64,000 bases of DNA from Muribaculaceae bacterium Isolate-013 (NCI) (GCA_004102785.1 SCEJ01000009.1:1-64000); one strand, 5' to 3'. Positions 11,250 through 61,164 are shown, counted from the stretch's first letter. Program-made: numbers and translations. The notes: generated by a model from the letters alone, not told the origin.

Positions 11250-11265
11250 ATTGTATCTGGTTGGT

Positions 11266-12822
11266 TTATTGATAATATTCTTTTCCTCTGATATTCTCAT
11301 GGGAAGGCATCTCCGTTTCTTGCCCGGCACTGTCTTCCAACGGGAACTCATCCTGCCGGTTGTTAAGGATGCGCTCGATGATGGGATAATTGTACAGACC
11401 GTAACTTGTAGCCCAACGGCAGGCATTGGTCAATCGGGTGTTGCCGACCCTGCGTGCGAAGCTAAGAATGCCCTGACACGATTTATAGGCTTGCTCCGGA
11501 TGCTTTTTCTCTTCCATAACCTGACGGATATATGCCTCCACATCCGGATGAATAGCCGCCGCTTCACGTATAAATTTATCCGGGTTCCATTCCGTGATAT
11601 AGCGATGGTGTGAAGCCAGGTGCTCTTCCAGGGTCGTGTACCGGCAACGGGCCCTGTTGCGGGTATGGGAAGCAATCAGCTCGTAGCCGTAATAGATGCA
11701 TACCTCGCGTGAGGTATATAACAAGATGACCTTCTTGCCTATATAGCCGCAAGGCACACTGTAGTAATGGGCGTCTTCCCCCAGGCGGACATGACCGTTT
11801 TTCATCACGGTAGCCCTGTAACGCTGTTTGAGTTCAAAACGGATGGGATTGAGCTTGCGTAAAGAATCACGTTCTATCTCCTCGAACTGTTCCCGTCGAC
11901 TGTATTTACGGTCTGTCAGCGGAGTGTTGTTGTGGAGTTCCAAGGCGACACGGATAGCCGCGTTCAGTGAATCAAGGTCATAAAACTCGCGTTCCTGTAT
12001 CTTTGGATAGATACTGCGATAGATCAGTTTAACGGCACCCTCGACCAGTGCCTTGTCACGTGGCTTGTAAGCCCTGGCGGGAATTACGGTACAGCCGTAA
12101 TGTTCGGCAAAGGCTGCAAAGTCCTCATTCAGGATGGCCTCGTATTTACTGCTCTTAGTAACGGCGGACTTGAGATTGTCCGGGATGATGGCGGAGGGAG
12201 CCCCCTGGTAGTATAACAAGGCGTTTTCCGAAGCACGGATCAAGTCCTCCTTTTTCTGGCTCATGACCGCTTCCACATAGGTTAACTGGCTGCAGGGAAG
12301 GATCGCGACAAAAACCTCCACCGGGATGATTTCGCCCGTCTCAAGGTCGATGATGGAGAGTTTGTCACCGGCGAAGTCTATGAACACTTTATCACCGGCC
12401 TTGTGTTCAAGATGCATGATGGGACGGCTGCAGGCTATATGCTGCTGAATCAGAATATAGAAGCGGGTGCGTCCGTAACCATCCGGATGGGAAGAGAGGT
12501 ACTCACGATGTAAAGCCTCACGGGTAACACCTTTCTTCTGAAGCCGCTTGCAATATTCGGGCAACAACGACTTTAGTTCTTCCATCCGTTCGCTTTCTGT
12601 CTTTACTCTGGTCTTTTCGTGGAATAACTCCGAGAGTTCCTGGTCCGATAGAGACAGTACTCCTTCATAATCCAAACCGCTGCGCTGAAATACCTGTAAG
12701 TATTTCTTGACCGTATTGCGCGAAACGGTTAACATACTGCTGATACTTTTGGTCCCATAACCCTGAGAGTAACAGCGTAACACTTGACGAATCTTTTCCA
12801 TTCCTAATTGTCTATTGGGCAT
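11266..12822 (-). CDS. istA: IS21 transposase IstA
   Basis: A 518-residue DDE transposase. The N-terminal helix-turn-helix region includes YGTKSISSMLTVSRNTVKKY (about residues 18-37). The rve catalytic core carries the first Asp in VFIDFAGDKL, the second in IPDNLKSAV and the Glu in KALVEGAVKL. Length and istA-istB order match IS21. Both genes look intact, so the element may be active. Confidence 0.93.
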   Translation of the reverse strand: MPNRQLGMEKIRQVLRCYSQGYGTKSISSMLTVSRNTVKKYLQVFQRSGLDYEGVLSLSDQELSELFHEKTRVKTESERMEELKSLLPEYCKRLQKKGVTREALHREYLSSHPDGYGRTRFYILIQQHIACSRPIMHLEHKAGDKVFIDFAGDKLSIIDLETGEIIPVEVFVAILPCSQLTYVEAVMSQKKEDLIRASENALLYYQGAPSAIIPDNLKSAVTKSSKYEAILNEDFAAFAEHYGCTVIPARAYKPRDKALVEGAVKLIYRSIYPKIQEREFYDLDSLNAAIRVALELHNNTPLTDRKYSRREQFEEIERDSLRKLNPIRFELKQRYRATVMKNGHVRLGEDAHYYSVPCGYIGKKVILLYTSREVCIYYGYELIASHTRNRARCRYTTLEEHLASHHRYITEWNPDKFIREAAAIHPDVEAYIRQVMEEKKHPEQAYKSCQGILSFARRVGNTRLTNACRWATSYGLYNYPIIERILNNRQDEFPLEDSAGQETEMPSHENIRGKEYYQ

Positions 12823-13029: not shown

Positions 13030-13054
13030 GACTAATTTATTTAGACTAACTTTG
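13030..13054 (+). promoter_or_regulatory. Promoter of the orphan blaI operon with a BlaI-like operator
   Basis: The -7 box TAACTTTG lies at 13047-13054. Directly upstream, 13030-13046 is an imperfect dyad GACTAA-n5-TTAGAC, the same half-sites and the same position relative to the -7 box as operator O1 of the second blaI operon (25024-25040). This makes autoregulation, and cross-regulation by the second BlaI, likely. No clear -33 TTTG is seen at 19-21 bp. Confidence 0.65.
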
Positions 13055-13074: not shown

Positions 13075-13446
13075 ATGATGGAACAACTTACTAAGCGTGA
13101 AGAAGAAGTGATGAACAAGTTTTGGGAGAGGGGCGAAGCTACCGTCAAGGAGATTATAGCCACTTATCCTGAACCTCGTCCAAGCCGGACTGCCATATCT
13201 ACATTTGTGAAGTTTCTTGTCGAGAAAGGCTTTTTAGGGCATAAGCCGGCAGGGAACAACGGGTTCATATACTACCCACTCATAGAACGGGATGAGTATT
13301 GTGGCAACAACCTGAAGAATGTAGTACAGAGATATTTTAATAACTCTATTCGTGGTGTGATAAGCACTCTTGTAAGAGATAGGAAAATGTCGGATGATGA
13401 AGTTCGGGAGTTGATAAATCAGGTAATTGAAGGAAATCGCCAATAA
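13075..13446 (+). CDS. BlaI/MecI-family repressor (orphan)
   Basis: A winged-helix repressor of about 123 residues, the usual BlaI/MecI length. Landmarks are LTKREEEVMNKFW at the N-terminus, EPRPSRTAISTFVKFL in the recognition-helix region (about residues 35-52) and a C-terminal dimer helix. It is roughly half identical to the BlaI at 25087. No blaR1-type sensor follows; it heads a tight run of seven genes to 16936. The BlaR1 at 25464 could supply the inactivating protease in trans, which is an inference. Confidence 0.88.
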   Translation: MMEQLTKREEEVMNKFWERGEATVKEIIATYPEPRPSRTAISTFVKFLVEKGFLGHKPAGNNGFIYYPLIERDEYCGNNLKNVVQRYFNNSIRGVISTLVRDRKMSDDEVRELINQVIEGNRQ

Positions 13447-23460: not shown

Positions 23461-24855
23461 ATGTCAAGAATTGATAATTTCCAACTCTCTACCTTTGCTG
23501 TCTTTATCAACATAAAGAGCATGGAAACTAATATTCGAATATTTACGGAACGCCACCTTCTACGGAATCCGTCACTTACGGTTCTGATGAAACTAAGCGT
23601 TGACGGCCACTTGGATGAATTACGTTTAAAAAAAACATTGCTTAAATTAAGAAGTGTTCACCCGCTACTTTATTCATCCATTTGCATGAATAATGAGGGA
23701 GAGGCATTTTATCAGGAAAACACTGTTCATCAGCTCGAATTGCATTTTATTAAAAGTGAACATTCAAATCAATGGCTGGAAATTGCCGAGTCCGAGAATA
23801 AAAAGCCTTTTAATTGCGAAACAGGTCCACTCATACGTTTTTTTGTATTCTACACTGAGATTGGTTTTGATATTCTGGCTGTATGTCATCATCTATTAGG
23901 TGACGGTAACGCTATTGCAAGATTATTGAGGGATGTAGTGTTTGTTTATGCTGGAAATAATTTGCCCTTAAAAGAACAACAGCTCATCTCAAAACAAAGT
24001 GATTTTCCACAAAAAGCTAAACTTTCTTTTCCTGTAAAATTGCTTCTGCGTTCACTAAATTCAAAGTGGTCTAAAGGTAAGCAGCAACGTTTTGGAGAAG
24101 CGGAATACCGGGAGATATTCAATAAGTACCATCAGTTAACAGATATTGCTTTGTCGTACTCAACCATAAACAAAGTTGATATGAACGCTTTGTACAATGC
24201 TTGTAAAATACACGGCATAACAATAAATGATGCAATTGTTACGGCATTTATTGGAGCTATGCAAGAAACATTCATCAATAACAAAAAAATGGTAGTCGGG
24301 ATTCCGATAGATATACGGAGACAACTTTCGTTTTCAGCAGACAGCAGCTTAGGCAATTTTGCTTCGGCCATTACAATTGCATATAAGTATGATCCTAAAA
24401 AAGACTTTTGGCAAAATGCTATTCTTATAAAGAAGAAAATAAAATCTAAAATGGATTCAACCAGAGCGCAATGGCTTATACTAAATGCCTACGCATCAAT
24501 GAATCCTTTACTAATTGATGCGATGTATTTTGCCTCTTATGGGGAGTGTGATGATAAAACTGCAAAAAAAGTTGCTTCAATGTTTTCGATTGGTAATCCT
24601 TCATCTACGGCGATATCTAATCTGGGACGATTGAACTTTGATACTCACATTGGTTCTTATAGCATTCGTGATTTGATATTCTTTGCGCCAAAAGCTCCGG
24701 GCAGTTATATTGTTCTTGGAGTTGCCACATTAAGTGACACTATGCAAATTGGATTTAGTTTTGACCGCAAAATAATATCTTCTGTGATTGTAAATAATCT
24801 GAAATCAAATATGTTGGCTTTACTTTTAAACCTGAATAAAGATATAAAAGTATGA
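23461..24855 (+). CDS. Condensation-fold acyltransferase-like protein
   Basis: A 464-residue protein with the condensation/BAHD-type motif HHLLGDG (about residues 143-149), where the second His would be catalytic. A late segment SNLGRLNFDT and SFDRKIISS fits the C-terminal half of the fold, as in PapA- or alcohol-acetyltransferase-like enzymes. No carrier protein or adenylation domain is nearby, so it more likely transfers an acyl group from CoA. The start may instead be the in-frame ATG at 23521 (METNIRIF). Confidence 0.72.
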   Translation: MSRIDNFQLSTFAVFINIKSMETNIRIFTERHLLRNPSLTVLMKLSVDGHLDELRLKKTLLKLRSVHPLLYSSICMNNEGEAFYQENTVHQLELHFIKSEHSNQWLEIAESENKKPFNCETGPLIRFFVFYTEIGFDILAVCHHLLGDGNAIARLLRDVVFVYAGNNLPLKEQQLISKQSDFPQKAKLSFPVKLLLRSLNSKWSKGKQQRFGEAEYREIFNKYHQLTDIALSYSTINKVDMNALYNACKIHGITINDAIVTAFIGAMQETFINNKKMVVGIPIDIRRQLSFSADSSLGNFASAITIAYKYDPKKDFWQNAILIKKKIKSKMDSTRAQWLILNAYASMNPLLIDAMYFASYGECDDKTAKKVASMFSIGNPSSTAISNLGRLNFDTHIGSYSIRDLIFFAPKAPGSYIVLGVATLSDTMQIGFSFDRKIISSVIVNNLKSNMLALLLNLNKDIKV

Positions 24856-25017
24856 AAAATCAATCCAAGCTATCCACACATAGAATTAGGGACATTCTAA
24901 GGATGTGTATGCAACTACTGCCAGGATTATATTGATTGGCGCAGGAACTTTCGATATCAATCGGCTATTCGGTTATCCACACTATTGAAAAATTTCAGTT
25001 TTTTCTAATAGTATTAT

Positions 25018-25077
25018 TTTGTCGTCTAAAATAATTAGACTATTTTTGCATTACTAAATCGTCTAATTTAATTAGAC
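25018..25077 (+). promoter_or_regulatory. blaI-blaR1 promoter with two BlaI-like operators
   Basis: A textbook Bacteroides promoter: -33 TTTG (25018-25021), 19-bp spacer, -7 TATTTTTG (25041-25048). Operator O1, GTCTAA-n5-TTAGAC at 25024-25040, fills the spacer; O2, with the same half-sites at 25061-25077, lies just past the expected start. Two dyads around a promoter next to a blaI gene fit repression by BlaI dimers. Confidence 0.8.
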
Positions 25078-25086
25078 TAAATATAA

Positions 25087-25461
25087 ATGGAAGATATGAA
25101 GCAATTAACAGAAAGAGAAGAAGAAGTAATGAACTTCTTTTGGGAAAGCGGGGCACTCTCGGTTCGGGATGTCGTTGCCCTTCACAATGAGCCGCGTCCA
25201 AGCCGGACTACGGTAGCCACATTCGTGAAACTTCTCGAACAGAAAGGCTATCTCAATCATAAAGTTGAAAGCACAAGCTTCATATATTTCCCCATAATAG
25301 AGCGAGAGGATTATTGTGGACAAAATCTGAAGAGTGTCATTAGGCGGTATTTCAACAATTCCATTCAGAATGTTGTGAACTTCCTGATTAACAGCGAGGA
25401 ATATAGCGATGAAGAGGCTAAGGAAATAATATCACAAATATCTAACAGAGGAAAGGAATAA
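25087..25461 (+). CDS. blaI: BlaI/MecI-family repressor
   Basis: A 124-residue winged-helix repressor (LTEREEEVMNFFWESG; EPRPSRTTVATFVKLLEQKG). Family members dimerise on dyad operators and are cleaved when the membrane sensor BlaR1 is activated. Its partner follows 2 nt downstream and two matching dyads lie in its promoter. Roughly half identical to the orphan BlaI at 13075. Confidence 0.92.
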   Translation: MEDMKQLTEREEEVMNFFWESGALSVRDVVALHNEPRPSRTTVATFVKLLEQKGYLNHKVESTSFIYFPIIEREDYCGQNLKSVIRRYFNNSIQNVVNFLINSEEYSDEEAKEIISQISNRGKE

Positions 25462-25463
25462 CA

Positions 25464-26822
25464 ATGGCAGGCATATTTTTAGCATATTCATTATTGGCAA
25501 GCACTCTCCTGATTGTAGTCTGGGTGGTGTACAAATGTGTTCTTGCCAATACCAGATGTTTCCGGTTCAATAGGATATTGTTGTTGTTCTGTATAACGCT
25601 TGCTTTCGTTTCTCCAATCTTCATACTTAATACTTTTTGGATAACGGATATTATGGAGGATAATATTGAAATCGCTTTTAATCCGGTCGAAGTTACCTAT
25701 ATTGCCAATTCGATATCAGAGGAAATCACTCCGATATGGGATTATATAGTCACACTTTACCTTATCGGGGTTATTGTCATGACTCTTTATTTTCTCGTTT
25801 CACTGGTACGGTTGGCACTCTTCATTATTAAAGGAGAACATATAAAACAAGATGGCAGTCACATAATCCTTCATCGCCACAACAGTGTTGCTCCGTTTGC
25901 ATGGTGCGGGTATATGATGATGCCCAGACGTGACTGGTATGAGTATGGGCAGATGATAGTACGCCATGAAAAAGCGCATATAGAATGTCGCCATTGGATT
26001 GACTTGCTTTTTATGCAGGCAGCGATTATTATCACTTGGTATTGTCCAGCTATATGGCTTCTGCGCAATGAGCTTCATACCCTCCATGAGTATGAAGCCG
26101 ACAGCCGTGTGCTTGCATCGGGCGTAAAACGAGAGGAGTATCAGATGTTTCTAATAAAAAAGACAGTTGGAGCAAGGTTCGCAACTCTTTCCAACTGTCT
26201 CAATCACAGTTCACTTAAAAAACGTATAACTATGATGTTATCAAGCAAACAGACAGGCACAGCCCGTGTGCGTGCCTTTGTCATGGTGCCTGCGATGGCA
26301 CTCGCATTAATCGGTCTGGCCACCCCTGCAGTGTCAGCAGTAATCAACGAGGTATCTGCCGCTACGCCGGTGGAGAATCTGCGCTACAAAATTAGCGAAA
26401 AATCCGATTCCACCATTCGCGTGACAGAAAGAAATTCCGATATGGTGGTGACGGAGAAAGCGGATGCGGACAATGCCGTGCCATTCATCAAGACTGAAAC
26501 CGCTCCCAACTTCCCCGGCGGCAAGGACAAATTGAGAGCTTTCATCAACAAGAACATAAAATTCCCTGAAACCGCCTATAAAGACGGTGTTCTTAATATG
26601 GATGCAGTCGTGCAACTCACCATTGCTAAGGACGGAGTGGTAAAAGATGCCAAAATAGTGAAAAGTTCAGGAAAGACACTTGATGGCGAAGCCCTTCGTG
26701 TGGCATTTATGCTTCCGCAATTCCATCCCGGACTCAATAACGGTCTGCCAGCAGAATCAAGCTATACATTGGAATTTAATTATTACATCTGCAATGAATA
26801 TTGGTCGTCAAACGGCGAATAA
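25464..26822 (+). CDS. BlaR1-like M56 metallopeptidase with TonB-type C-terminus
   Basis: A 452-residue membrane sensor-protease. Hydrophobic segments lie at about residues 1-20, 32-52, 95-115 and 275-295. The gluzincin motif HEKAH (about residues 172-176) marks the M56 peptidase on the cytoplasmic side. In place of the penicillin-binding sensor of classical BlaR1, the C-terminus (about 350-450) is a TonB-C-like domain (VQLTIAKDGVVKDAKIV), as in many Bacteroidetes homologues. The ligand is therefore probably not simply a beta-lactam. Second gene of the operon. Confidence 0.88.
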   Translation: MAGIFLAYSLLASTLLIVVWVVYKCVLANTRCFRFNRILLLFCITLAFVSPIFILNTFWITDIMEDNIEIAFNPVEVTYIANSISEEITPIWDYIVTLYLIGVIVMTLYFLVSLVRLALFIIKGEHIKQDGSHIILHRHNSVAPFAWCGYMMMPRRDWYEYGQMIVRHEKAHIECRHWIDLLFMQAAIIITWYCPAIWLLRNELHTLHEYEADSRVLASGVKREEYQMFLIKKTVGARFATLSNCLNHSSLKKRITMMLSSKQTGTARVRAFVMVPAMALALIGLATPAVSAVINEVSAATPVENLRYKISEKSDSTIRVTERNSDMVVTEKADADNAVPFIKTETAPNFPGGKDKLRAFINKNIKFPETAYKDGVLNMDAVVQLTIAKDGVVKDAKIVKSSGKTLDGEALRVAFMLPQFHPGLNNGLPAESSYTLEFNYYICNEYWSSNGE

Positions 26823-26923
26823 TAGCAAAACAGAATACCAATAGGACAATTATCTTATCTGATGCTTGGAGTATGCCGTATTTTTCAGTACGGCATCTCC
26901 TGTATCATAAAACTAAAAAAACA

Positions 26924-27289
26924 ATGGAATTAGTATTTACAATACTTATCGGAGTCGTTATCGGAGCCGTCAATGCCCTCCCTATGTTTCTCAAAAAAAT
27001 GGATAAGGCAAACTGTTGGTCTGCTTTTGTGCAGTATGTGGTGGTAACTTTCATTATCTTCAACACTACACTTCCTCAGTTGAATGTCAACGACTTTTTA
27101 GCCGGTCCGATTGTATCAGTTCTAATGACTATGCCTATGGTGATTATGATTGCTAAGAACGAAAAGAAAGCTGTTCCGATTGTGCTTGTCAATGCGGTCA
27201 TTTTAGGGTTGATTATAGCGGCAATCAAGCATTTCAGAGCGTCTTTAGGGTTGATTATAACGGCAATCGAGCATTTTAGAGCGTTGTGA
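26924..27289 (+). CDS. Small membrane protein with a C-terminal tandem repeat
   Basis: A 121-residue protein with three or four hydrophobic segments (starting MELVFTILIGVVIGAVNALP). The start at 26924 follows an A-rich leader; a longer frame from 26801 would overlap blaR1. The last 28 residues are two nearly equal 14-residue units, LGLIIAAIKHFRAS and LGLIITAIEHFRAL, from a 42-bp duplication. Function unknown. Confidence 0.7.
   Translation: MELVFTILIGVVIGAVNALPMFLKKMDKANCWSAFVQYVVVTFIIFNTTLPQLNVNDFLAGPIVSVLMTMPMVIMIAKNEKKAVPIVLVNAVILGLIIAAIKHFRASLGLIITAIEHFRAL
27203..27286 (+). repeat. Two tandem 42-bp units within the membrane-protein gene
   Basis: Copy 1 is 27203-27244 and copy 2 is 27245-27286; they differ at about five bases and keep the reading frame, so the gene product ends in a doubled 14-residue unit. 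A recent slip or unequal exchange is likely. Confidence 0.85.
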
Positions 27290-27294
27290 TTTGT

Positions 27295-27645
27295 ATGAAT
27301 CAGGTAATAGCAGATTTTGATAGCGTCGCAGCTTGCGAGCTGTTTTGTGGATCGTGTCGCAAATTCTTGTCAGGGAGATGTCCCGGATGTGAGAAGAACG
27401 AAAAAGCATCGTGGTGTAAAATCCGTCAATGTTGCATAAGCAGAGGCTATCATACCTGTGCCAAATGTAAGCGTGACGTAAGAGAGTGTAAAACCTATTC
27501 CAACTTTATAAGCAAAGTGTTCGCGTTCATCTTCAATTCTGACCGTCCGTCTTGTATTAGCTATATAAGGGAACATGGCGAGATTGCATATGCAGAAGAA
27601 ATGAGCAGAAGAGGATGTCAAACAATAAAACGAAATAGAAAATGA
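27295..27645 (+). CDS. DUF3795-type cysteine-rich protein
   Basis: A protein of 116 residues with about 12 cysteines, in pairs such as CGSCRKF, CPGCEKN, CCISRG, CAKCKRDVREC. The arrangement fits DUF3795, thought to bind metal. The start at 27295 (MNQVIADF) is used; a GTG at 27286 is possible. The stop overlaps the next start by 4 nt. Confidence 0.8.
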   Translation: MNQVIADFDSVAACELFCGSCRKFLSGRCPGCEKNEKASWCKIRQCCISRGYHTCAKCKRDVRECKTYSNFISKVFAFIFNSDRPSCISYIREHGEIAYAEEMSRRGCQTIKRNRK

Positions 27646-28076
27646 AATTACCCAACTGGACCATTTTATTTATAGGTCTATTGTTGCTTTCTTGTGACAA
27701 GAATACAAGTGTGGGGCTATCCGGTAAATGGCGAATCGTGGAGTATAAATGTATCGCAACTTCCACGCCATTCGCCCTTTCCACCGTAGCCGATGGAAGT
27801 GATTATTCACTTGAATTTGATAATCAAGGAAATGTATTCTGTAATACGGGGTGCAATTTGGTGTCCGGTCAATATATTCTCAAAGGGGACAAGTTGATAT
27901 TTCCGGAAATAACATCCACCGAAATGGCTTGTGAGGATATGCTTATGGAAGAAAGTATGAAGCACATTCTTCCTGCTATAAAGACCTTTGAGATAAAGAA
28001 TGATACGATTCTATTTCTTAAAGATGCAGATGGCCATACCTTGATGGAACTAACTAAAACAACAGATCAGGTATGA
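27642..28076 (+). CDS. META-domain lipoprotein
   Basis: A 144-residue protein with a lipoprotein signal (lipobox LLSC, Cys 18) and a META/HslJ-like domain (GKWRIVEYKC, FCNTGCNLVSGQYIL, EMACEDMLMEESMKHIL). HslJ-like proteins sit in the envelope and have been tied to antibiotic or stress tolerance. It is coupled by overlaps to both neighbours. Confidence 0.85.
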   Translation: MKLPNWTILFIGLLLLSCDKNTSVGLSGKWRIVEYKCIATSTPFALSTVADGSDYSLEFDNQGNVFCNTGCNLVSGQYILKGDKLIFPEITSTEMACEDMLMEESMKHILPAIKTFEIKNDTILFLKDADGHTLMELTKTTDQV

Positions 28077-29473
28077 GCAAGAAGTTTCTAATGATGGTAT
28101 TTATAGCCATTTTTTCTGTAATCAGTGTTATGGCATCGAAGAATATATCAGGGGCATGGAGCGGGACATTAAGAATCACTCCACAGTTGTCACTGAAATT
28201 AGTATTCAATTTCAAAACCGAAGAGGACGGAATACAGTTGGTAACTCTCGATTCTCCGGATCAAGGTGCTTATGGAATAGCAGGAGATGTGAATTTCATT
28301 TCTGCCGATTCGGTTAATATATCATTCCGACAAATTGGATTATCTTTTGCCGGACGACAACAAAATGGGATTATAACAGGTATTTGCAGTCAAGGGGCGA
28401 TGAAAGCGAATATTGAATTATCTCCGGGAACTGTTGAATTAAAACGGCCACAGACTCCGCTACCTCCGTATCCATATACGACCAAAGAAATCAACATCAA
28501 TAATCCATCGGACGATGTAATCCTTTCAGGGACTCTCACTCTCCCAAAAGATTATAACACTGCAACTCCCGTCGTTGTAATGATAACAGGTAGCGGGCTT
28601 CAAAACCGGGATGAGGAAATTTTTGGACACAAACCCTTTGCTGTGATAGCCGATTATCTTGCAAGAAATGGCATTGCATCTTTTCGGTATGATGATCGGG
28701 GACATGGGAAATCAACAGGTGACGGAACAACTGCCACGACCGAAGATTTTGTGCGGGATGCCCGATGTGTATTAGAATATGTACGAATGGTGGAGAACTT
28801 CAATAACGTGGGATTATTAGGGCATAGCGAGGGGGCAACTGCCGCTTTTATGTTGGGGGCTGAACCTGAGATAAAAACACAAGATAATTTATGCGTAATT
28901 GATCCGGGTAAACCGGACTTTATTGTCGCAATCGGAGCGCAGGCAGTTCGTGGTGATACCATTCTGATAGACCAGAGTGCGACTTTACTCAAACAAGGCA
29001 ATATGCCTGACAATATAGTATCGGACTATGTAGAAGCCTTGCACAACATCTATGACTTGAAAATAACACAAGATGATGAGATAGCTATTGATAGTATTGA
29101 CGCAATATGCAAAAATTGGAGTAATACACCCATCCATACTGCGTTGATGTCCAATCTTAAAAAGATTGCATCCGATACCAATCCGTGGCTGAATTTCTAT
29201 ATCGGTTTCTCTCCGGCTGAGAGCATTTTAACTACCCGTTGCCCTGTATTTGTGCTTTATGGTGAAAGGGATATACAAGTAAAACCGAAACTAAATATGC
29301 CGCAAATGCAACGACTCGCACCAAAGGCTCAAATAAAACTCTACCCGGAACTGAACCATCTTTTCCAACATTCCCAAACCGGAGCCGTACAGGAATACGG
29401 TACAATTGAGGAAACAATCTCTCCCGAAGTTTTACAGGATATTGCCGATTTTATCATATCTATAGTTCATTAG
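28073..29473 (+). CDS. Exported alpha/beta hydrolase
   Basis: A 466-residue serine hydrolase with a signal peptide (FLMMVFIAIFSVISVMA). The N-terminal 130 residues are a beta-rich accessory domain. The hydrolase core has the oxyanion region VMITGSGLQNRDEE, the nucleophile elbow GHSEGA (Ser about residue 253) and late FVLYGERDIQV and LNHLF, supplying the Asp and His. Related enzymes are esterases or peptidases of the Bacteroidetes periplasm. The gene ends 4 nt before rteA. Confidence 0.87.
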   Translation: MSKKFLMMVFIAIFSVISVMASKNISGAWSGTLRITPQLSLKLVFNFKTEEDGIQLVTLDSPDQGAYGIAGDVNFISADSVNISFRQIGLSFAGRQQNGIITGICSQGAMKANIELSPGTVELKRPQTPLPPYPYTTKEININNPSDDVILSGTLTLPKDYNTATPVVVMITGSGLQNRDEEIFGHKPFAVIADYLARNGIASFRYDDRGHGKSTGDGTTATTEDFVRDARCVLEYVRMVENFNNVGLLGHSEGATAAFMLGAEPEIKTQDNLCVIDPGKPDFIVAIGAQAVRGDTILIDQSATLLKQGNMPDNIVSDYVEALHNIYDLKITQDDEIAIDSIDAICKNWSNTPIHTALMSNLKKIASDTNPWLNFYIGFSPAESILTTRCPVFVLYGERDIQVKPKLNMPQMQRLAPKAQIKLYPELNHLFQHSQTGAVQEYGTIEETISPEVLQDIADFIISIVH

Positions 29474-29477
29474 GTTT

Positions 29478-31787
29478 ATGAATTCTATCCGTAAGTTAAT
29501 CTCTTGTGGTTATATTCTAATATTCATGTTTATAGGAATAATCATTTATTGCTATAAGCATGAATGGCAAAAACTTGAATCATTAGAAAAAGAGAATCAA
29601 GCGGCGGATGAATTACGTCAGAAAATAAATGAATTAAACTTTCATTTGACAGGACTTTCTCTATTAGGAGAAACCGTATTGGAATGGAATAAGGATGAAA
29701 GAGGACACTATCACGCCAAACGCATGGCAATAGACAGTATGCTATGTAATTTCAGAAGAACTTATCCGACAGAGCGGATTGATAGTGTACGTTATCTTTT
29801 AGAGGATAAGGAGCGACAGATGCTCTCGATTGTACGGATACTTGACAAGCAGCAAGCCGTTAACAAGAAGATAGCCGATCAAGTACCGGTCATCGCACAG
29901 AAAAGTGTGCAGGAACAGCCAAAAAAGCCGAAACGAAAAGGATTTTTGGGCATATTTGGCAAAAAAGAAGAAGTGAAGCCAACAGCAACAGCTACTATGC
30001 TTCATTCGCTCAATAAAAACATAATCAGCGAGCAAAAGGCACAAAGCCGCAGATTGTCAGAACGTGCCGACAGTCTTGCGGAACACAATGCGGAACTTAA
30101 CAGACAACTGCAAGAACTGATTCGCCAAATTGATGAAAAGGTACAGATTGACCTAAAAAATCGGGAAAATAAAATATCCTTGATGAGGAAAGAGTCGCTA
30201 ATGCAAATAGGTAGTTTGACAGGATTTGTACTTCTATTGTTAATCATTTCTTATATCACCATATACCGTGATGCAAAACAAATAAAACAATACAAATGCA
30301 AAACAGCGGAGTTAATCGGGCAACTTAAACAATCCATACAACAAAACGAAGCTTTAATAGTTTCACGAAAGAAGGCAGTACACACAATAACCCATGAACT
30401 GCGCACACCGCTTACGACAATAACCGGCTATACCGAATTGTTACGGAAAGAATGCAGCAATGGAAATAATGTGCATTTTCTTCAAAGCATACAACAATCC
30501 TCCGACCGTATGCGGGATATGCTCAACACCCTGCTGGACTTTTTCCGCTTGGACAACGGAAAGGAACAGCCCAGACTGTCACCCTGCCGCATTTCAACAA
30601 TCGCACATACCCTTGAAACGGAGTTCATGCCAATCGCCATGAACAGGGGGCTTTCCTTGACCGTAAAGAACGAAAACGATGCGGTTGTACTGACCGACAA
30701 AGAGCGAATAATCCAAATCGGGAACAACCTCCTGTCAAATGCCATCAAGTTCACGGAGGAAGGTGGTGTGTCGCTAACTACCGGCTATACCGACGGAGTG
30801 CTGATACTGATAGTCGAGGATACAGGCACAGGCATGACCGAAGATGAACAACAACGTGTATTTGGTGCATTTGAACGCCTCTCAAACGCCGCCGCAAAGG
30901 ACGGCTTCGGGCTTGGACTTGCCATCGTGCATAATATCGTGACAATGCTACACGGAACAATACGGCTGGATAGCGATAAAGGGAATGGTAGCCGTTTCAT
31001 AGTGAAAATACCCATGCAGAAAGCCGAAGACGTACCGAAAAAAGAGATACAGACTTGTATCCACCAAAAGGACAGAAACCTCAATGTTGCCGCCATAGAC
31101 AATGATGAGGTGCTACTCCTGATGCTGAAAGAAATGTATGCACAGGACGGAATACACTGCGACACTTGCACCGATACGGGGGAACTGATGGAAATGGTAC
31201 GCCGGAAAGAATACAACTTGTTGCTGACGGATCTGAATATGCCCAGTATAAACGGTTTCGAGTTGCTGGAACTGTTGCGATCTTCCAACGTGGGCAATTC
31301 ACAGACAATCCCAGTGGTCGTGGCAACCGCTTCGGGCAGCTGCGATGTGGAGGAACTTCTGGAACGAGGCTTTGCCGGATGCCTTTTCAAGCCGTTCTCC
31401 ATATCGGAGCTGATGGAAGTTTCCGACAAGTGCGCTATTAAAAATACACAGGACAGTAAACCGGACTTTTCTGCTTTGCTGTCCTACGGCAATGAAGCTG
31501 TCATGCTGGAAAAGCTGATAACGGAAACCGAGAAGGAAATGCAGGCGGTTCGGGATGCGGCAACGCGAAACGACCTGCAAGAACTTGATGCCTTGACACA
31601 CCATTTGCGCAGTTCGTGGGAGATACTCCGTGCCGACCAGCCGCTGAGGATACTTTATGGAGTGCTACATGGAAAGGCAATGCCGGAAGAAAGTGAGTTA
31701 AGCCATGCTGTTACCGCAGTATTGAATATGGGAGCGGAAATAATCCGACAGGCAAAAGAGGAAAGGAGAAAATACGAAAATGGATAG
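29478..31787 (+). CDS. rteA: RteA hybrid sensor histidine kinase
   Basis: A 769-residue kinase, sensor half of the RteA/RteB system that drives transfer of CTnDOT-like elements. In order: TM1 (about residues 9-27), a charged coiled-coil sensor region, TM2 (about 247-266), HisKA with phospho-acceptor His 306 (HELRTP), HATPase (NNLLSNAIKF, DTGTGM, GFGLGLAIV), a receiver with Asp 585 (LLLTDLNMP) and a C-terminal HPt-like region (THHLRSSW, His 708/709). Unlike CTnDOT, where tetQ precedes rteA, here an alpha/beta hydrolase gene of the blaI operon ends 4 nt before it. Confidence 0.93.
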   Translation: MNSIRKLISCGYILIFMFIGIIIYCYKHEWQKLESLEKENQAADELRQKINELNFHLTGLSLLGETVLEWNKDERGHYHAKRMAIDSMLCNFRRTYPTERIDSVRYLLEDKERQMLSIVRILDKQQAVNKKIADQVPVIAQKSVQEQPKKPKRKGFLGIFGKKEEVKPTATATMLHSLNKNIISEQKAQSRRLSERADSLAEHNAELNRQLQELIRQIDEKVQIDLKNRENKISLMRKESLMQIGSLTGFVLLLLIISYITIYRDAKQIKQYKCKTAELIGQLKQSIQQNEALIVSRKKAVHTITHELRTPLTTITGYTELLRKECSNGNNVHFLQSIQQSSDRMRDMLNTLLDFFRLDNGKEQPRLSPCRISTIAHTLETEFMPIAMNRGLSLTVKNENDAVVLTDKERIIQIGNNLLSNAIKFTEEGGVSLTTGYTDGVLILIVEDTGTGMTEDEQQRVFGAFERLSNAAAKDGFGLGLAIVHNIVTMLHGTIRLDSDKGNGSRFIVKIPMQKAEDVPKKEIQTCIHQKDRNLNVAAIDNDEVLLLMLKEMYAQDGIHCDTCTDTGELMEMVRRKEYNLLLTDLNMPSINGFELLELLRSSNVGNSQTIPVVVATASGSCDVEELLERGFAGCLFKPFSISELMEVSDKCAIKNTQDSKPDFSALLSYGNEAVMLEKLITETEKEMQAVRDAATRNDLQELDALTHHLRSSWEILRADQPLRILYGVLHGKAMPEESELSHAVTAVLNMGAEIIRQAKEERRKYENG

Positions 31788-33102
31788 GACAAGAATAATC
31801 GTCGTGGAGGATAACATCGTGTATTGCGAATATGTCTGCAACCTGCTGGCACGAGAAGGCTACCATACCGTAAAGGCTTACCACCTATCGACAGCGAAAA
31901 AACATCTGCAACAGGGGACGGATAATGATATAGTGGTTGCCGACCTGCGTCTGCCTGACGGCAACGGCATAGACCTGTTGCGCTGGATGCGCAAGGAGGG
32001 GAAACTACAACCCTTCATCATCATGACCGATTACGCCGAGGTGCATACGGCAGTGGAAAGCATGAAACTCGGTTCTTTGGATTACATACCCAAACAGCTT
32101 GTGGAAGACAAACTCATTCCACTTCTCCATTCCATACAGAAAGAACGACAAGCGGGACACCGCCGTATGCCCGTGTTCGCCCGTGAGGGTTCCGCCTTTC
32201 AGAAAATCATGCACCGGATAAGGCTGGTAGCCGCTACCGATATGAGCGTGATGATATTCGGGGAGAACGGCACAGGCAAGGAACATATCGCCCACCACCT
32301 GCACGATAAGAGTAAACGGGCGGCCAAACCATTTGTGGCGGTGGACTGCGGTTCTCTCTCCAGAGAACTTGCGCCATCGGCTTTCTTCGGACATGTCAAA
32401 GGCGCGTTTACAGGTGCGGACAGTACCAAGAAAGGATATTTCCATGAGGCGGAAGGTGGTACGCTATTTCTCGACGAGGTGGGTAATCTCGCATTGGAAA
32501 CCCAACAGATGTTGCTCCGTGCCATACAGGAAAGGCAGTATCGCCCGGTCGGAGACAAGGCGGACAGAAGTTTCAACGTCCGCATCATCGCCGCCACCAA
32601 CGAGGATCTGGAAGCGGCAGTGAGTGAAAAGCGTTTCCGGCAGGATTTGCTCTACCGTCTGCAAGACTTCGTGATAACCGTGCCGCCCTTGCGTGACTGT
32701 CAGGAGGACATCATGTCGCTGGCGGAGTTCTTTCGGGAGATAGCCAACAGGGAACTGGAGTGTAATGTAAGCGGTTTCAGTTCCGAGGCCAGAAAAGCGT
32801 TGCTGACCCACGCATGGCCGGGCAACGTGCGCGAGCTTCGGCAGAAAATCATGGGAGCGGTATTGCAGGCTCAGGAAGGTGTGGTCACGAAAGAGCATCT
32901 TGAACTTGCCGTGACGAAACCGACCTCACCAGTCAGCTTCGCCCTACGCAATGACGCGGAGGATAAGAAACGGATAATGCGTGCGTTAAAGCAGACAAAC
33001 GGCAACCGAAGTGCCGCCGCCGACCTGTTGGGAATAAGCAGAGCTACACTTTATAGTAAACTTGAAGAGTATGGACTTAAATATAAATTCAAGCAACCAT
33101 AG
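31780..33102 (+). CDS. rteB: RteB sigma-54-type response regulator
   Basis: A 440-residue activator: receiver with Asp 55 (DIVVADLRLP), AAA+ domain with Walker A FGENGTGKEH (about 160-169), GAFTGA (208-213), Walker B TLFLDEVGNL (about 227), and a Fis-type helix-turn-helix at the C-terminus (ADLLGISRATLYSKLEEYG). In CTnDOT RteB activates rteC. It overlaps rteA by 8 nt. Its last codons lie within a 54-nt sequence that recurs after the RES gene. Confidence 0.94.
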   Translation: MDRTRIIVVEDNIVYCEYVCNLLAREGYHTVKAYHLSTAKKHLQQGTDNDIVVADLRLPDGNGIDLLRWMRKEGKLQPFIIMTDYAEVHTAVESMKLGSLDYIPKQLVEDKLIPLLHSIQKERQAGHRRMPVFAREGSAFQKIMHRIRLVAATDMSVMIFGENGTGKEHIAHHLHDKSKRAAKPFVAVDCGSLSRELAPSAFFGHVKGAFTGADSTKKGYFHEAEGGTLFLDEVGNLALETQQMLLRAIQERQYRPVGDKADRSFNVRIIAATNEDLEAAVSEKRFRQDLLYRLQDFVITVPPLRDCQEDIMSLAEFFREIANRELECNVSGFSSEARKALLTHAWPGNVRELRQKIMGAVLQAQEGVVTKEHLELAVTKPTSPVSFALRNDAEDKKRIMRALKQTNGNRSAAADLLGISRATLYSKLEEYGLKYKFKQP

Positions 33103-33135
33103 CCCGTAATTCGCTGAAATTTATTATTTTTGCAG
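33082..33135 (+). repeat. Direct repeat at the rteB 3' end, copy 1
   Basis: This 54-nt stretch contains the last codons of rteB, the intergenic sequence and a -7 box. It matches 34100-34153 without gaps at 47 of 54 positions, with only one mismatch in the first 37. The two copies bracket the RES gene. Confidence 0.85.
33125..33132 (+). promoter_or_regulatory. -7 box of the RES gene (TATTTTTG)
   Basis: An exact TAnnTTTG match inside the duplicated segment, 15 nt before the ATG of the RES gene. The corresponding box in the second copy is TATCTTTG at 34143. The duplication therefore seems to give the inserted gene a promoter. Confidence 0.6.
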
Positions 33136-33147
33136 TGTTAATTCAGA

Positions 33148-34035
33148 ATGATGAGAGTCGATAGAGAAAGCCCCAACAAATATTTTGATGAAAGTGATGC
33201 GAGTTATGAAGCTCGTAAAATTTGGTATGCGTTTAAAGATGTTGTACTTTACAAAGATCGCTTTTTTGTAAAACATCAACTTTTGGATATACTATCAAAG
33301 TATGTATCTGAGAATATTGTTGAGGTTTATTCTGGTCAAATATTCTTTAGGTCAAGAATTATTGATGATAGTTGTATCAATGACCATATGGTATATAAAT
33401 GTTATGGAGCACCAGATGGTGAACGGTTAGATATAGGTTATCATAATAAATCGAATCCATTTAAAGGGCTTACAAAAGAGGCCTCTTTCGTTCCACCTAA
33501 AAATGTGAGAGTTTCGGATGGACGTGCGAATCCTAAATATATTAAGTATCTATATGTTTCAGAAAGCCCTACTACAACATTATTTGAGGTACGACCTTTT
33601 ATAGGTGATGCAGTGAATATTGCTCAAATAAGAGTTAATAGACCTCTTAAGATTGCAAACATTGCTGTTGAACTTGACTTGTCTGAAAATAATAATGCGA
33701 CAGTAGATATGTATATTATGAGGATGATACAAAGGGCATTTTCTAAACCGACTAACGATTCTGACGATTATATTCCATCCCAGATTATAGCAGAGTATCT
33801 TAAAAATCTTGGATATGATGGTATAAGGTACAATAGTTCATTACATTTTGGAGGTGTAAATTTGACTATATTTAATTATGAGAAATGTGAAGCCATATCT
33901 TCTCAAGATTTTAGAATAGAAGACATCAAACTAACGGCAAGAGCGGCTTTTGGTTGTGCTAATAATCAGGGGGATTTAGCGTATATTAATGATAATAACC
34001 CGTTATATCTCGATTATGAGAAGCTAATTAAATAA
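33148..34035 (+). CDS. RES-domain protein (putative NAD+-degrading enzyme)
   Basis: A 295-residue protein of markedly A+T-rich DNA. The RES core (about residues 60-250) shows FFRSRI, the glycine/arginine block GRANPKYIKYLYVSES with TTTLFEVRP, and the late YDGIRYNSSLHFGGVNLTIF; conserved Arg, Glu and Ser of the family are in place. RES toxins degrade NAD+, usually paired with an Xre antitoxin. No antitoxin gene adjoins this one, and the protein is longer than typical RES toxins, so a solitary defence or stress effector is possible. It sits between rteB and its former downstream region. Confidence 0.8.
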   Translation: MMRVDRESPNKYFDESDASYEARKIWYAFKDVVLYKDRFFVKHQLLDILSKYVSENIVEVYSGQIFFRSRIIDDSCINDHMVYKCYGAPDGERLDIGYHNKSNPFKGLTKEASFVPPKNVRVSDGRANPKYIKYLYVSESPTTTLFEVRPFIGDAVNIAQIRVNRPLKIANIAVELDLSENNNATVDMYIMRMIQRAFSKPTNDSDDYIPSQIIAEYLKNLGYDGIRYNSSLHFGGVNLTIFNYEKCEAISSQDFRIEDIKLTARAAFGCANNQGDLAYINDNNPLYLDYEKLIK

Positions 34036-34099
34036 AATACTATCAAATCACAATAACCTTTATAGTGTAAAAAAGCATTCTTACTAAGAACGAAAAACG

Positions 34100-34153
34100 T
34101 ATAAATTCAAGCAATCATAGCCCGTAATTCGCTGAATTTCGCTATCTTTGTAG
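34100..34153 (+). repeat. Direct repeat of the rteB 3' end, copy 2
   Basis: Copy 2 of the 54-nt repeat. Read in the rteB frame it would end KFKQS and stop, against KFKQP in the intact gene; nothing before it resembles rteB. It marks the right edge of the inserted RES cassette. Confidence 0.85.
34143..34150 (+). promoter_or_regulatory. -7 box of the leader RNA / RibD-like gene (TATCTTTG)
   Basis: An exact Bacteroides -7 match at the end of repeat copy 2. Transcription from about 34157 would give a leader of about 220 nt up to the terminator at 34348-34375, containing the long hairpin. Confidence 0.6.
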
Positions 34154-34224
34154 AACATTTGAGAAATAACGGCGATTGGCTGGAGCTTTTCGCCGCCGAC
34201 ATATAGAATAAGACCGCAAGGAGT

Positions 34225-34347
34225 TTCAAGCGTAAATCTGGTAAATTGAAACTAAACGAAGCTAATTGCGTGATGCTTATGCTATGCCTACGCATAGCGT
34301 GCATTCACGTATTTCGTTTAGGGGCTTTACCAGAGCCTACGCTTGAA
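34225..34347 (+). ncRNA. 123-nt nested hairpin in the leader of the RibD-like gene
   Basis: Five nested stems, separated by small internal loops: 34225-34234 with 34338-34347 (10 bp), 34237-34245 with 34326-34334 (9 bp), 34252-34260 with 34313-34321 (9 bp), 34269-34276 with 34301-34309 (8 bp, one bulge) and 34281-34287 with 34292-34298 (7 bp, 4-nt loop). A smaller stem CGGCGA/TCGCCG lies at about 34171-34191. A terminator follows without a gap. It could be an attenuator leader or a stable small RNA. No known riboswitch consensus was recognised. Confidence 0.65.
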
Positions 34348-34375
34348 GTAGTGTGGATTGCACGCTACTTTTTTT
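34348..34375 (+). terminator. Intrinsic terminator before the RibD-like gene
   Basis: An 8-bp stem GTAGTGTG / CACGCTAC (one G-T pair; 34348-34355 with 34361-34368) followed by seven T. It stands between the leader promoter and the gene at 34404, so that gene would be expressed only when it is bypassed. Confidence 0.75.
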
Positions 34376-34403
34376 GCACCTTGCCTAACGAAAGGATACG
34401 ATT

Positions 34404-34817
34404 ATGGGAAAAGTTCAGATTCTTGCCGTCCTTACAATAGACGGATGTCTTTCTTCCGAGTTATATGGCAAAGCGCATAAGGATTTGCGTCTTGACCGTT
34501 GCGGTCTTGATGAAATCAGAAAAAACGCCCTTTACCGTGTCACGCCTGACTATTCCATCTCTATGCTGCACGAATGGCGAGAAGACGGCACAAACACCTG
34601 CTATCTTGCGGAAGCGACACCTGACACGGCGGACTATATCAACGGGCTGCTGCGTATGCAGGCGGTAGATGAAATCATACTGTACACCATTCCTTTCATT
34701 GCTGGAACCGGACGGCATTTCTTCAAGTCGGCACTCTACGAAAAACACTGGACACTTGCTTCGCTGAAAAGCTATCCCAACGGTGTATGCCGTTCCATAT
34801 ATGCCCTTGACAGATAA
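34404..34817 (+). CDS. RibD C-terminal / dihydrofolate-reductase-like protein
   Basis: A 137-residue protein of the RibD-C/DHFR-like reductase fold: N-terminal KVQILAVLTIDGCLSSE and late VDEIILYTIPFIAGTGRHFF, the usual nicotinamide-binding end. It is shorter than typical members (about 170-200), missing part of the central region. Reductase activity is unproven. Located between the structured leader and rteC. Confidence 0.8.
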   Translation: MGKVQILAVLTIDGCLSSELYGKAHKDLRLDRCGLDEIRKNALYRVTPDYSISMLHEWREDGTNTCYLAEATPDTADYINGLLRMQAVDEIILYTIPFIAGTGRHFFKSALYEKHWTLASLKSYPNGVCRSIYALDR

Positions 34818-34830
34818 ATAAGAACACCTG

Positions 34831-34857
34831 AAATGTATGCCGGTCATACATTTTAAT
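34831..34857 (+). terminator. Intrinsic terminator after the RibD-like gene
   Basis: A perfect 9-bp stem AAATGTATG / CATACATTT (34831-34839 with 34845-34853) and TTTTAATTT. It separates this gene from rteC, whose own RteB-dependent promoter should lie in 34860-35068; no standard -7 box is visible there, consistent with activator dependence. Confidence 0.7.
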
Positions 34858-35068
34858 TTACGAAAAATTATATAAATGTCTAATTTATAGTCAAATTAAG
34901 TCTTCGTCAATTCATTCCTGATAAAAAATATCAAGATTTATACATCTGAAATCCAGTGCTTTGTGAAAACGGGTGCCGGATTTTCTGTTTTCTGCCACGC
35001 TTATTGCCAATAATATTCATGTGCGCATACCGAAAAACAGAGTGTAAAACTTCAAAATTGACAGGAAC

Positions 35069-35674
35069 ATGAACTACTTTTTATTAGCGGAAACCGACTT
35101 TTTCCGCCTGATAAACGAAGCCGGCGACTGCAATATGGAAACGGCATATATGGCTTTCGCCACCCAAGTGATCGAACTGTGCAATGGCAGCATGGACGCA
35201 AACCGTACCATCATCGCATTGGCATACATTGAAATCGAGTTACAACACCATCCCGTGCGCAACCTTTCCGAAGAAAGGAAAGAGATTGCCGCATACGTCA
35301 GCAAGGCTCTCTCTTTCGTCAGGAAGATGCAGAAGTTCCTTGCAATGTCCCAAGTGCCACCACTAATATCCGCCAACACTACAACCGATAACACTGCCAA
35401 CCTCCTGCAATGGACGGGCAACGCCATCGACCTCGTGGAACTTATCTACGGCATTGACGAGATGGGCTGCATCAACAACGGCAAAATGCCGCTCAAACAG
35501 CTCGCTCCGCTTCTTTACAAGATATTCGGTATTGAATCAAAGGACTGCTACCGTTTCTACGTTGACATCAAACGCAGGAAGAACGAAAGCCGCACCTACT
35601 TCCTCGACAGGATGCAGGAAAAACTGAACGAGAGGATGCTGCGCGACGAAGAGTTGGAACGCATGAGAAAATGA
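35069..35674 (+). CDS. rteC: RteC, activator of excision genes
   Basis: A 201-residue RteC-family protein (MNYFLLAETDFFRLIN; the C-terminal half with RFYVDIKRRKNESRTYFLDR, a helix-rich putative DNA-binding segment). In CTnDOT RteC, itself induced by RteB, activates the excision operon. The start at 35069 has AGGAA 4 nt upstream. A strong terminator follows and separates it from the convergent mob operon. Confidence 0.93.
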   Translation: MNYFLLAETDFFRLINEAGDCNMETAYMAFATQVIELCNGSMDANRTIIALAYIEIELQHHPVRNLSEERKEIAAYVSKALSFVRKMQKFLAMSQVPPLISANTTTDNTANLLQWTGNAIDLVELIYGIDEMGCINNGKMPLKQLAPLLYKIFGIESKDCYRFYVDIKRRKNESRTYFLDRMQEKLNERMLRDEELERMRK

Positions 35675-35685
35675 TATCAAAAAAC

Positions 35686-35717
35686 AAGCGGGACAGGTTT
35701 TGAAACTTGTTCCGCTT
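35686..35717. terminator. Bidirectional terminator between rteC and mobC
   Basis: A 15-bp stem with two G-T pairs (35686-35700 with 35703-35717) between two convergent genes, with A-rich sequence on the left and T-rich on the right, so it may work on both strands. Confidence 0.75.
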
Positions 35718-35738
35718 ATTTCCATTATTGCCAATAGG

Positions 35739-37748
35739 TTACTTCTGCTGCAACAGATGTTTCAGGTTATCATCGTTTGCGATACGCTCCAGTTCCTCCT
35801 GAACAATCTGTTTCACCTCTTCCTTGATTCGCCTGTAATTAGCCTGCACCGTTTCCTTCATGCGGTCGTTGCCATTCTCGTCCGTGAAGTCGGTAATGAC
35901 GGGGATAGGCTTGTAGGCACTTTCCTCCCGCTTCACCTTCTCGGCATCCACCACAATCTCGCAGTGAAAAATCTTCTGCTCGATGCGCTCGTTAAAGTTG
36001 TCGGACACCGAACCGACAAACATTCCCTGCGTAAGCCCGGAAATCTTGCTCGGTGGAATGAGCGCGTCCATCTGCGTGTTGATGGAGGTGGACACGTCCT
36101 GCCGGTTGATGGAAATGGACTGCCGCTTCTGCAACACCTTACCAAACCGCTCTGAGAGCGTCTTGGCAGTTTCGCCTACCACCTGACCGGAGAAAATGTT
36201 GCCGACAGTATTCATCACCACCTTCGCCTCTTTGTCCCCGTAGTCACGCACCAACTGACTGAAATCCTGAAAGCCCAGACACACGGCAACCTTGTTGCTT
36301 CGTGCGGTGGCAATCAAATTGTCAAGCCCCTTGAAGTATATCGTCGGCAGCTCGTCTATGATGACCGACGACTTCAACATCCCCTTCTTGTTGATGAGCT
36401 TCACGATACGGGAGTTATACAGACCGAGAGCCGCCCCGTAGATGTTCTGACGGTCGGGATTGTTGCCCACGCAGAGGATTTTCGGCTCTTCGGGATTGTT
36501 GATGTCCAGCGTAAACTCGCTGTCAGACATCACCCAGTAGAGCTGCGGGGAAATCATCCTCGAAAGCGGAATTTTTGCCGACGCTATCTGTCCCATGAGC
36601 TGCTCCGCAGCCCCTCCGAGCCACGCATCCATAAATGGGGAAAGGTAGTTCTCCAGTTCGGGATAAGAGGTCAGTATCGGAAAAATATCCTCATAGCGGC
36701 GGTTCAAAAACTCGATGGCATGGGGAAACGTGCAATACTTACCGTTCTGATAGATTTTGAGATACCAGATAATGCTGGCAAATAAAATGATAGGTGACTC
36801 CACAAAGAAGTCGCCCTGCTTTTGCACCCAAGTTTTATTGAGGTTGAGCATTATCGTGTATGCACTTTCGTAAGCGTCCGTAATATCCTCCATGAAATCC
36901 GGATGTATCGGATTGCACCGATGTGAACGTCGCGGGTCGTCGAAGTTGATTACATAGAACTTTGGCATCACCTTGTAGCCCTCCGAATTGTTCATCAGGT
37001 GGTTATAGGCGATGGTAGAGAGGTCGGGATATTTGAAATCATAACAATACATCGAAAAGCCCTTCTCAATCTGTTGCTTGATAAAACTGTTCACCACAGC
37101 GTATGACTTGCCGCTGCCCGGTGTCCCTAACACGATGGACGCACGGAACGGGTTTACCACATTTATCCAGCCGTTGTTCCAACGCTTTTTATAGTAGAAG
37201 CGTGTGGGCAGATTAACGGAATACTCGCTTTCGATGAGCCTTGTTTCCTGCATGAAACTCTCGTTTTCGTTGTTGAAAACATCCTCCATCAGATTGTGTT
37301 TCAACAGGCGGCTCATCCACAGACCTCCCATCAAAAGGCAGACATAGCCCGTGCCGATGGTAAGGATATACAAGCCTGTCACCGCTTCAACAGGTAGTGG
37401 CAGAGCCAGTATCCACCAGTTGAGGAAAAACAGCACGAACCCGGCGGCGAGTGCCGTCCAGATTTTACGCCAAGTGATTTTCTCACCCTTGACCCCTTTT
37501 GTTCCCAAGCACGACAGCGCAAGCAGCAGGACGGCAAACAGCTTCGTGTACAGTATGGAATGGAACAGCCCCGCCGTGCGGTTGAAGTTCATCAGTATCC
37601 TGTCCACCACGCCGATGTCCACGCCCCAAAGCCGGATGGCTTCATAGCAGAACCAGTACACGTTCATTACCACTAAAATGATACTCACGGCACGCAGAAA
37701 ATCCATGATTTTCGCCAATGCCCTCAAATCGTCTTCTTGTTGTGACAT
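35739..37748 (-). CDS. mobC: MobC, type IV coupling protein (VirD4/TraG-like)
   Basis: A 669-residue inner-membrane ATPase linking the relaxosome to the transfer channel. The N-terminal 130 residues have several membrane segments (ISIILVVMNVYWFCY; FVLFFLNWWILALPLP). Walker A is GTPGSGKSYAVV (about residue 208) and Walker B SSVIIDELPTIYF (about 460), followed by RSNKVAVCLGFQDFSQL, typical of VirD4-like proteins. Third gene of the leftward mob operon, 30 nt after mobB. Confidence 0.93.
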   Translation of the reverse strand: MSQQEDDLRALAKIMDFLRAVSIILVVMNVYWFCYEAIRLWGVDIGVVDRILMNFNRTAGLFHSILYTKLFAVLLLALSCLGTKGVKGEKITWRKIWTALAAGFVLFFLNWWILALPLPVEAVTGLYILTIGTGYVCLLMGGLWMSRLLKHNLMEDVFNNENESFMQETRLIESEYSVNLPTRFYYKKRWNNGWINVVNPFRASIVLGTPGSGKSYAVVNSFIKQQIEKGFSMYCYDFKYPDLSTIAYNHLMNNSEGYKVMPKFYVINFDDPRRSHRCNPIHPDFMEDITDAYESAYTIMLNLNKTWVQKQGDFFVESPIILFASIIWYLKIYQNGKYCTFPHAIEFLNRRYEDIFPILTSYPELENYLSPFMDAWLGGAAEQLMGQIASAKIPLSRMISPQLYWVMSDSEFTLDINNPEEPKILCVGNNPDRQNIYGAALGLYNSRIVKLINKKGMLKSSVIIDELPTIYFKGLDNLIATARSNKVAVCLGFQDFSQLVRDYGDKEAKVVMNTVGNIFSGQVVGETAKTLSERFGKVLQKRQSISINRQDVSTSINTQMDALIPPSKISGLTQGMFVGSVSDNFNERIEQKIFHCEIVVDAEKVKREESAYKPIPVITDFTDENGNDRMKETVQANYRRIKEEVKQIVQEELERIANDDNLKHLLQQK

Positions 37749-61149: not shown

Positions 61150-61164
61150 TAAAAAGTGAAAAAT

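Follow-up and report, generated by a model that had tools for sequence, protein, structure and literature searches.

What governs the transfer of a CTnDOT-family element when an operon other than that of tetQ stands in front of its transfer regulators? In CTnDOT itself, tetQ is cotranscribed with rteA and rteB, and tetracycline induces transfer. The question is raised by a 64,000-nucleotide stretch of DNA from Muribaculaceae bacterium Isolate-013 (NCI) (GCA_004102785.1 SCEJ01000009.1:1-64000), hereafter called the window, in which eight same-strand genes run from blaI (25087) to rteB (33102) inside an element of this family. The tetQ position of this element holds an operon headed by BlaI and an M56 metalloprotease, and rteAB behind such an operon was not described in the titles, abstracts and passages covered by our literature search. 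We consider it somewhat probable, and the likeliest of the readings, that rteAB are wired to this operon, as an earlier note on the sequence proposed, through steps from repressor binding to transfer that we infer.

The blaI-rteB gene run and its promoter

The features of the run are given below with their matches in three other rteA loci, L029 (Odoribacter sp. Z80), L066 (a Bacteroides metagenome-assembled genome, MAG) and L081 (a Bacteroidales MAG), which together with the window form the class of loci having a hydrolase gene directly upstream of rteA.

25018..25048, + strand: Bacteroides-type promoter TTTG-N19-TATTTTTG, boxes at 25018 and 25041 (consensus scan)
25024..25040, no strand assigned: predicted operator 1, GTCTAAAATAATTAGAC, wholly within the 19-nt promoter spacer
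25061..25077, no strand assigned: predicted operator 2, GTCTAATTTAATTAGAC, just 3′ of the -7 box
25087..25461, + strand: blaI, BlaI/MecI-family repressor, 124 aa (PF03965, E 1.7e-26, 93 bits; matches to MecI/BlaI structures)
25464..26822, + strand: BlaR1-like M56 metalloprotease with C-terminal TonB_C (PF05569 above cut-off, PF03544)
26860..26907, + strand: strong conserved RNA hairpin without a T-tract, in a 101-nt gap (-29 kcal/mol, z -5.7)
26924..27289, + strand: 121-aa membrane-like protein (open reading frame, ORF; 86% relative in L081; no match in a Pfam search)
27286..27645, + strand: cysteine-rich DUF3795-like protein (75-80% to neighboring genes in L029, L066 and L081; the paralogue in L029 is PF12675)
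27642..28076, + strand: META-domain lipoprotein-like protein (PF03724, E 2.3e-18)
28073..29473, + strand: alpha/beta hydrolase, EstD/S33-like (PF12146; best NCBIfam match EstD, below cut-off)
29478..31787, + strand: rteA, hybrid sensor kinase (HisKA, HATPase and receiver domains)
31780..33102, + strand: rteB, sigma-54-type response regulator (PF00158, PF00072, HTH_8)
35069..35674, + strand: rteC (PF09357, E 1.1e-25)

The promoter at 25018 is the sole full match to the Bacteroides consensus (TTTG, 18-21 nt, TAnnTTTG) on the + strand from 24850 to 33100, where shuffled sequence gives 0.04, and the earlier statement that the only clear promoter carries two BlaI-type dyads is borne out. Operator dyads at the operon's own promoter are a hallmark of BlaI/BlaR1 systems and are present here as predicted sites. 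When GTCTAAN5TTAGAC was sought with at most one mismatch, three sites were found in the whole 3.3-Mb genome, namely operators 1 and 2 and a dyad at 13030, all of them at blaI promoters. The third belongs to a second repressor gene:

13075..13446, + strand: second blaI (PF03965, E 1.3e-27), whose own promoter bears a related, near-identical dyad (13030-13046)

This gene has no adjoining M56 gene, and its product may cross-regulate the 25018 promoter. Because the rteC, mob and tra genes of the window have no BlaI-type dyads, BlaI could influence transfer only by way of the blaI-rteB gene run. Operator 1 is perfectly conserved in L029 and L066 and operator 2 is conserved there in position, the promoter and both operators being kept in these loci although the DNA further upstream is unrelated. 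The tetQ loci likewise have a promoter of the Bacteroides type with a 19-nt spacer 5′ of tetQ.

Downstream of blaI, the successive junctions measure +2, +101, -4, -4, -4, +4 and -8 nt, so that the overlaps or short gaps reported earlier describe six of the seven junctions and fail at the 101 nt that follow the M56 gene. The 4 nt between the hydrolase stop (29473) and rteA (29478) were confirmed from the ORF coordinates. Between about 25670 and 33100, no promoter match of at least 9/10 was found; the strong promoter within the hydrolase gene that would have driven rteA independently thus has no consensus match, although a weak, non-consensus one may exist.

The product of blaI aligns with the MecI and BlaI structures, and its Asn98-Phe99 lies near the known BlaI/MecI cleavage dipeptide. 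The HEKAH and EAD motifs of the M56 protein align with HEYAH and EAD of BlaR1 (8EXS) within a weak match (E 0.065). In this protein, domain searches found only M56 and TonB_C-type domains and no penicillin-binding sensor domain, which in BlaR1 is the beta-lactam sensor (PMC7593790). Since that domain is missing from the predicted protein, with TonB_C in its place, beta-lactam sensing is not supported, and a beta-lactam is an unlikely inducer of the gene run. The envelope or drug stress named in the earlier note is a guess. Folding the M56 protein from its single sequence gave a model of too low quality for use (pLDDT 42), and scans of IMG/VR found no relatives of either the hydrolase or the M56 protein.

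By the wiring that we favor, BlaI would bind both dyads and block the 25018 promoter until the M56-TonB membrane protease sensed an envelope-side signal and cleaved BlaI. Transcription would then proceed via the hydrolase gene to rteA-rteB, with the hairpin 3′ of the M56 gene perhaps acting as a throttle. By analogy with CTnDOT, in which RteB activates rteC and RteC controls excision and transfer (PMC1976400), RteB would switch on rteC, and RteC in turn the excision and transfer genes. Gene order, the junction with rteA, operators conserved in divergent relatives and the lack of another consensus promoter all support the position of rteAB at the end of a gene run headed by BlaI and M56, as the earlier note had it, whereas read-through past the hairpin to rteA is a step that we infer.

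Several observations weigh against such wiring. The hairpin at 26860-26907 parts blaI-M56 from the genes downstream, and consensus scans overlook weak promoters, so that a non-consensus promoter could lie within the hydrolase gene. The resemblance of the M56 protein to BlaR1 is slight at the E-value given above, and the chromosomal BlaI of the host, although it stands beside another M56 gene, has no Asn-Phe at the corresponding site (read by eye), which leaves the cleavage argument only suggestive. In addition, the layout is known from four loci, whose likeness may come from shared ancestry of the cargo and not from selection on regulation, and the contig of one of them, L081, begins just before the hairpin and does not cover blaI-M56.

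A hairpin between the M56 gene and the downstream genes

The hairpin in the 101-nt gap recurs in L029, L066 and L081 (z -5.5 to -7.8), while the gene that lies 3′ of it varies, being a MATE gene in L029, a DUF3795 gene in L066 and the gene for the 121-aa protein in the window and L081. Pairing is retained in 92.5% of cells and the pair counts show no compensatory changes, so its conservation extends to the sequence no less than to the structure. It is not a common repeat, as the motif, sought in 99 genomes (the window's own and relatives), was confined to G000 (the window's own) and G007; an Rfam search of 24800-36000 gave no match. The hairpin may act in attenuation, in processing or in transcript stability, and it could limit read-through from blaI-M56. 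Mainly because of it, cotranscription of blaI and rteA is not to be assumed.

Taken further, the hairpin might end or strongly cut the blaI-M56 transcript, leaving the downstream genes and rteAB to a weak, non-consensus or constitutive promoter and giving BlaI little say in transfer. The retention of a -29 kcal/mol hairpin in four loci despite the differing next gene speaks for termination of this kind, as does the behavior of promoter, blaI, M56 and hairpin (24995-26911) as a unit, which is 89-91% identical to L029 and L066 compared with 72-75% for hydrolase-rteAB. However, a stem without a T-tract is no ordinary intrinsic terminator, a terminator scan did not call it, and the long interval devoid of 9/10 promoter matches offers no evident start for a separate transcript. 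We judge this explanation unlikely, yet it is the most serious competitor of the BlaI/M56 wiring.

Conserved linkage and the mosaic rteA

Among 83 rteA loci, tetQ lies directly upstream in 57, the hydrolase gene in 4 (the window included) and other genes in 15, the remaining 7 being cut by a contig edge. The rteA locus L008 comes from a MAG labelled Oscillospiraceae but is of Bacteroidales type and differs little from the locus of an Alistipes MAG (L007), which is probably due to a binning error. The hydrolase-rteA-rteB order is common to the four loci of the window's class; the hydrolases of L029, L066 and L081 are 69% identical to that of the window, each adjoins rteA, and the distance from the hydrolase stop to the rteA ATG is exactly 4 nt in 4/4 loci. 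In L029 and L066, blaI-M56 is again found upstream, although the flanking cargo differs. A wider search for the hydrolase in 393 genomes of the order returned only the Odoribacter contig already in the set.

Close coupling to the upstream gene extends to the other classes. In CTn214, tetQ overlaps rteA by 1 nt. Among the genes upstream in the "other" class are those for the outer-membrane efflux component of an RND-type pump (L025, L078), for a hexapeptide acetyltransferase that follows a MATE pump gene (L067), for an aminotransferase (L065) and for a small product behind a TonB-type receptor (L004, L005 and contig C195 of the window's genome). In the nine distinct loci of this class that were inspected, the upstream gene was codirectional with rteA and no 9/10 promoter match preceded rteA. 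To judge from consensus scans, which pass over weak promoters, rteAB across the family seems to depend on transcription from upstream.

The same data bear on a simpler view, that the BlaI operon merely landed beside rteA and travels along as cargo, without influencing the control of transfer. The cargo slot is variable and the loci with this layout are few (4), as would be expected of such descent, but the exact 4-nt junction, the codirection in each class examined and the lack of a recognizable rteA promoter in any class all argue against it, and we hold cargo descent alone to be improbable.

The history of rteA itself is composite. Among the 46 RteA proteins placed in a tree, that of the window stands apart from those of L029, L066 and L081 on well-supported branches, and yet the first approximately 150 nt of the gene are 73-81% identical to these loci and 46-60% identical to all other classes, while its later parts are nearer to the tetQ and other loci. 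Sites separating the groups side with the BlaI class in 20/24 cases before nt ~230 and in 11/113 cases after it, and the changepoint at nt 228-238 was reached by 0/1000 permutations. Codons 1 to ~78 thus track the BlaI-hydrolase class and the remainder the tetQ/other backbone. Most simply read, this pattern means that a recombination event within rteA (~29705-29715) brought in the cargo operon along with the start of the gene. On the left side, likeness to tetQ elements stops at the stop codon of the methylase/helicase gene (10249), so the exchanged slot would extend from 10249 to ~29.7 kb. An IS21-type istA/istB pair (10497-12822) directly follows that gene and lies at the left margin of the slot.

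These observations raise a more interesting possibility than the wiring of a single element, namely that the operon before rteAB is swappable. Tentatively, we propose that CTnDOT-family elements have an inducer slot, consisting of the cargo operon 5′ of rteA and the first ~78 rteA codons, which ties transfer to the signal of the cargo. Whichever operon sits upstream would drive rteAB, and operons would be exchanged by recombination in the 5′ end of rteA, with tetracycline, the BlaI/M56 signal, efflux substrates and others as possible signals.

The element, its host and known systems

The element carries rteA, rteB and rteC, as members of the CTnDOT family do, along with genes for a relaxase, MobC_2, a TraG-type coupling protein, TraJ, TraM and a TraG P-loop protein. 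The window is cut at the left end of the element, and the tyrosine integrase (PF00589, L125:16864-18123) is seen in a near-identical copy in the genome G007, where it occupies the left end with small HTH genes. No tetQ precedes rteA in the window and the tetQ-rteAB operon of CTnDOT itself is thus absent; by its predicted backbone the element is a member of the family, but not of the tetQ-operon type. Positions 1-30255 share 99.99-100% identity with contig C3 of G007, which is another species of the genus, whereas the rpoB regions of the two genomes are only about 82.7% identical; the element therefore moved between species recently. A further contig (L083) shows 99.99% identity across 11.5 kb and is probably part of the G007 genome, as it begins where C3 ends.

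The earlier statement that tetQ is absent holds for the interval from the methylase/helicase gene to rteA, the place of tetQ in related elements, but not for the genome, which has two more rteA-rteB loci, on C340 (L108), behind tetQ, and on C195 (L107), behind a TonB-type receptor gene. Under tetracycline, RteA and RteB from C340 might activate the rteC of the window in trans, making the BlaI link a by-product. The 90% identity of the C340 RteB to that of the window is compatible with such induction, and foreign RteAB triggers the transfer of CTn4-bt in trans (PMC1976400). It would leave unexplained, however, both the conserved BlaI-hydrolase-rteA layout of other species and the retention of an intact rteAB by the element, and we regard it as very improbable. 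Given that RteAB is able to activate other elements in trans (PMC1976400), tetracycline might still induce the element in this host.

Several features lie outside the blaI-rteB run. An RES-domain gene (33148-34035) sits 3′ of rteB between ~50-nt direct repeats (region 33084-34157); CTn214 (L104) has no such gene and a single copy of the repeat. Between rteB/RES and a RibD-like gene, the stretch 34212-34380 is structured and has a T-tract terminator at its end:

34345..34373, + strand: likely terminator, a stem followed by 7 T (fold and sequence)

Two group II intron reverse transcriptases (43502-45157 and 48696-50528) are found among the tra genes, on either side of the TraG gene, and genes for a CBASS-type cyclase and a TIR-STING effector (61156-63137) lie toward the right end of the element.

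To our knowledge, tetracycline and CTnDOT are the only case in which the induction of transfer has been studied well. According to a 2025 review, numerous Bacteroidales integrative and conjugative elements are without similar regulatory genes, and their control is ripe for study (PMC12632263). If rteAB are indeed plugged into the upstream cargo operon, non-antibiotic signals or those of other drugs in the gut could trigger the spread of an element, and the gene that precedes rteA could be used to predict the trigger.

Relative to CTnDOT/CTnERL and CTn214, the element shares the integrase (seen in the G007 copy), topoisomerase III, the N6-methylase/helicase gene, rteA, rteB, rteC, mobABC and CTnDOT-type tra genes, its backbone being ~90-91% identical to that of CTn214. 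It differs from these tetQ elements in having the BlaI/M56-headed operon rather than tetQ before rteA, and in the RES gene inserted 3′ of rteB. In the tetQ operon, an attenuator in the tetQ leader controls translation (PMC5418344). With the staphylococcal BlaI-BlaR1 and MecI-MecR1 systems, the operon has in common a Penicillinase_R repressor, an HExxH M56 metalloprotease and dyads at its own promoter. Unlike those systems, whose sensors end in a penicillin-binding domain, its sensor ends in TonB_C, the operon includes no beta-lactamase gene, and its gene run ends in transfer regulators.

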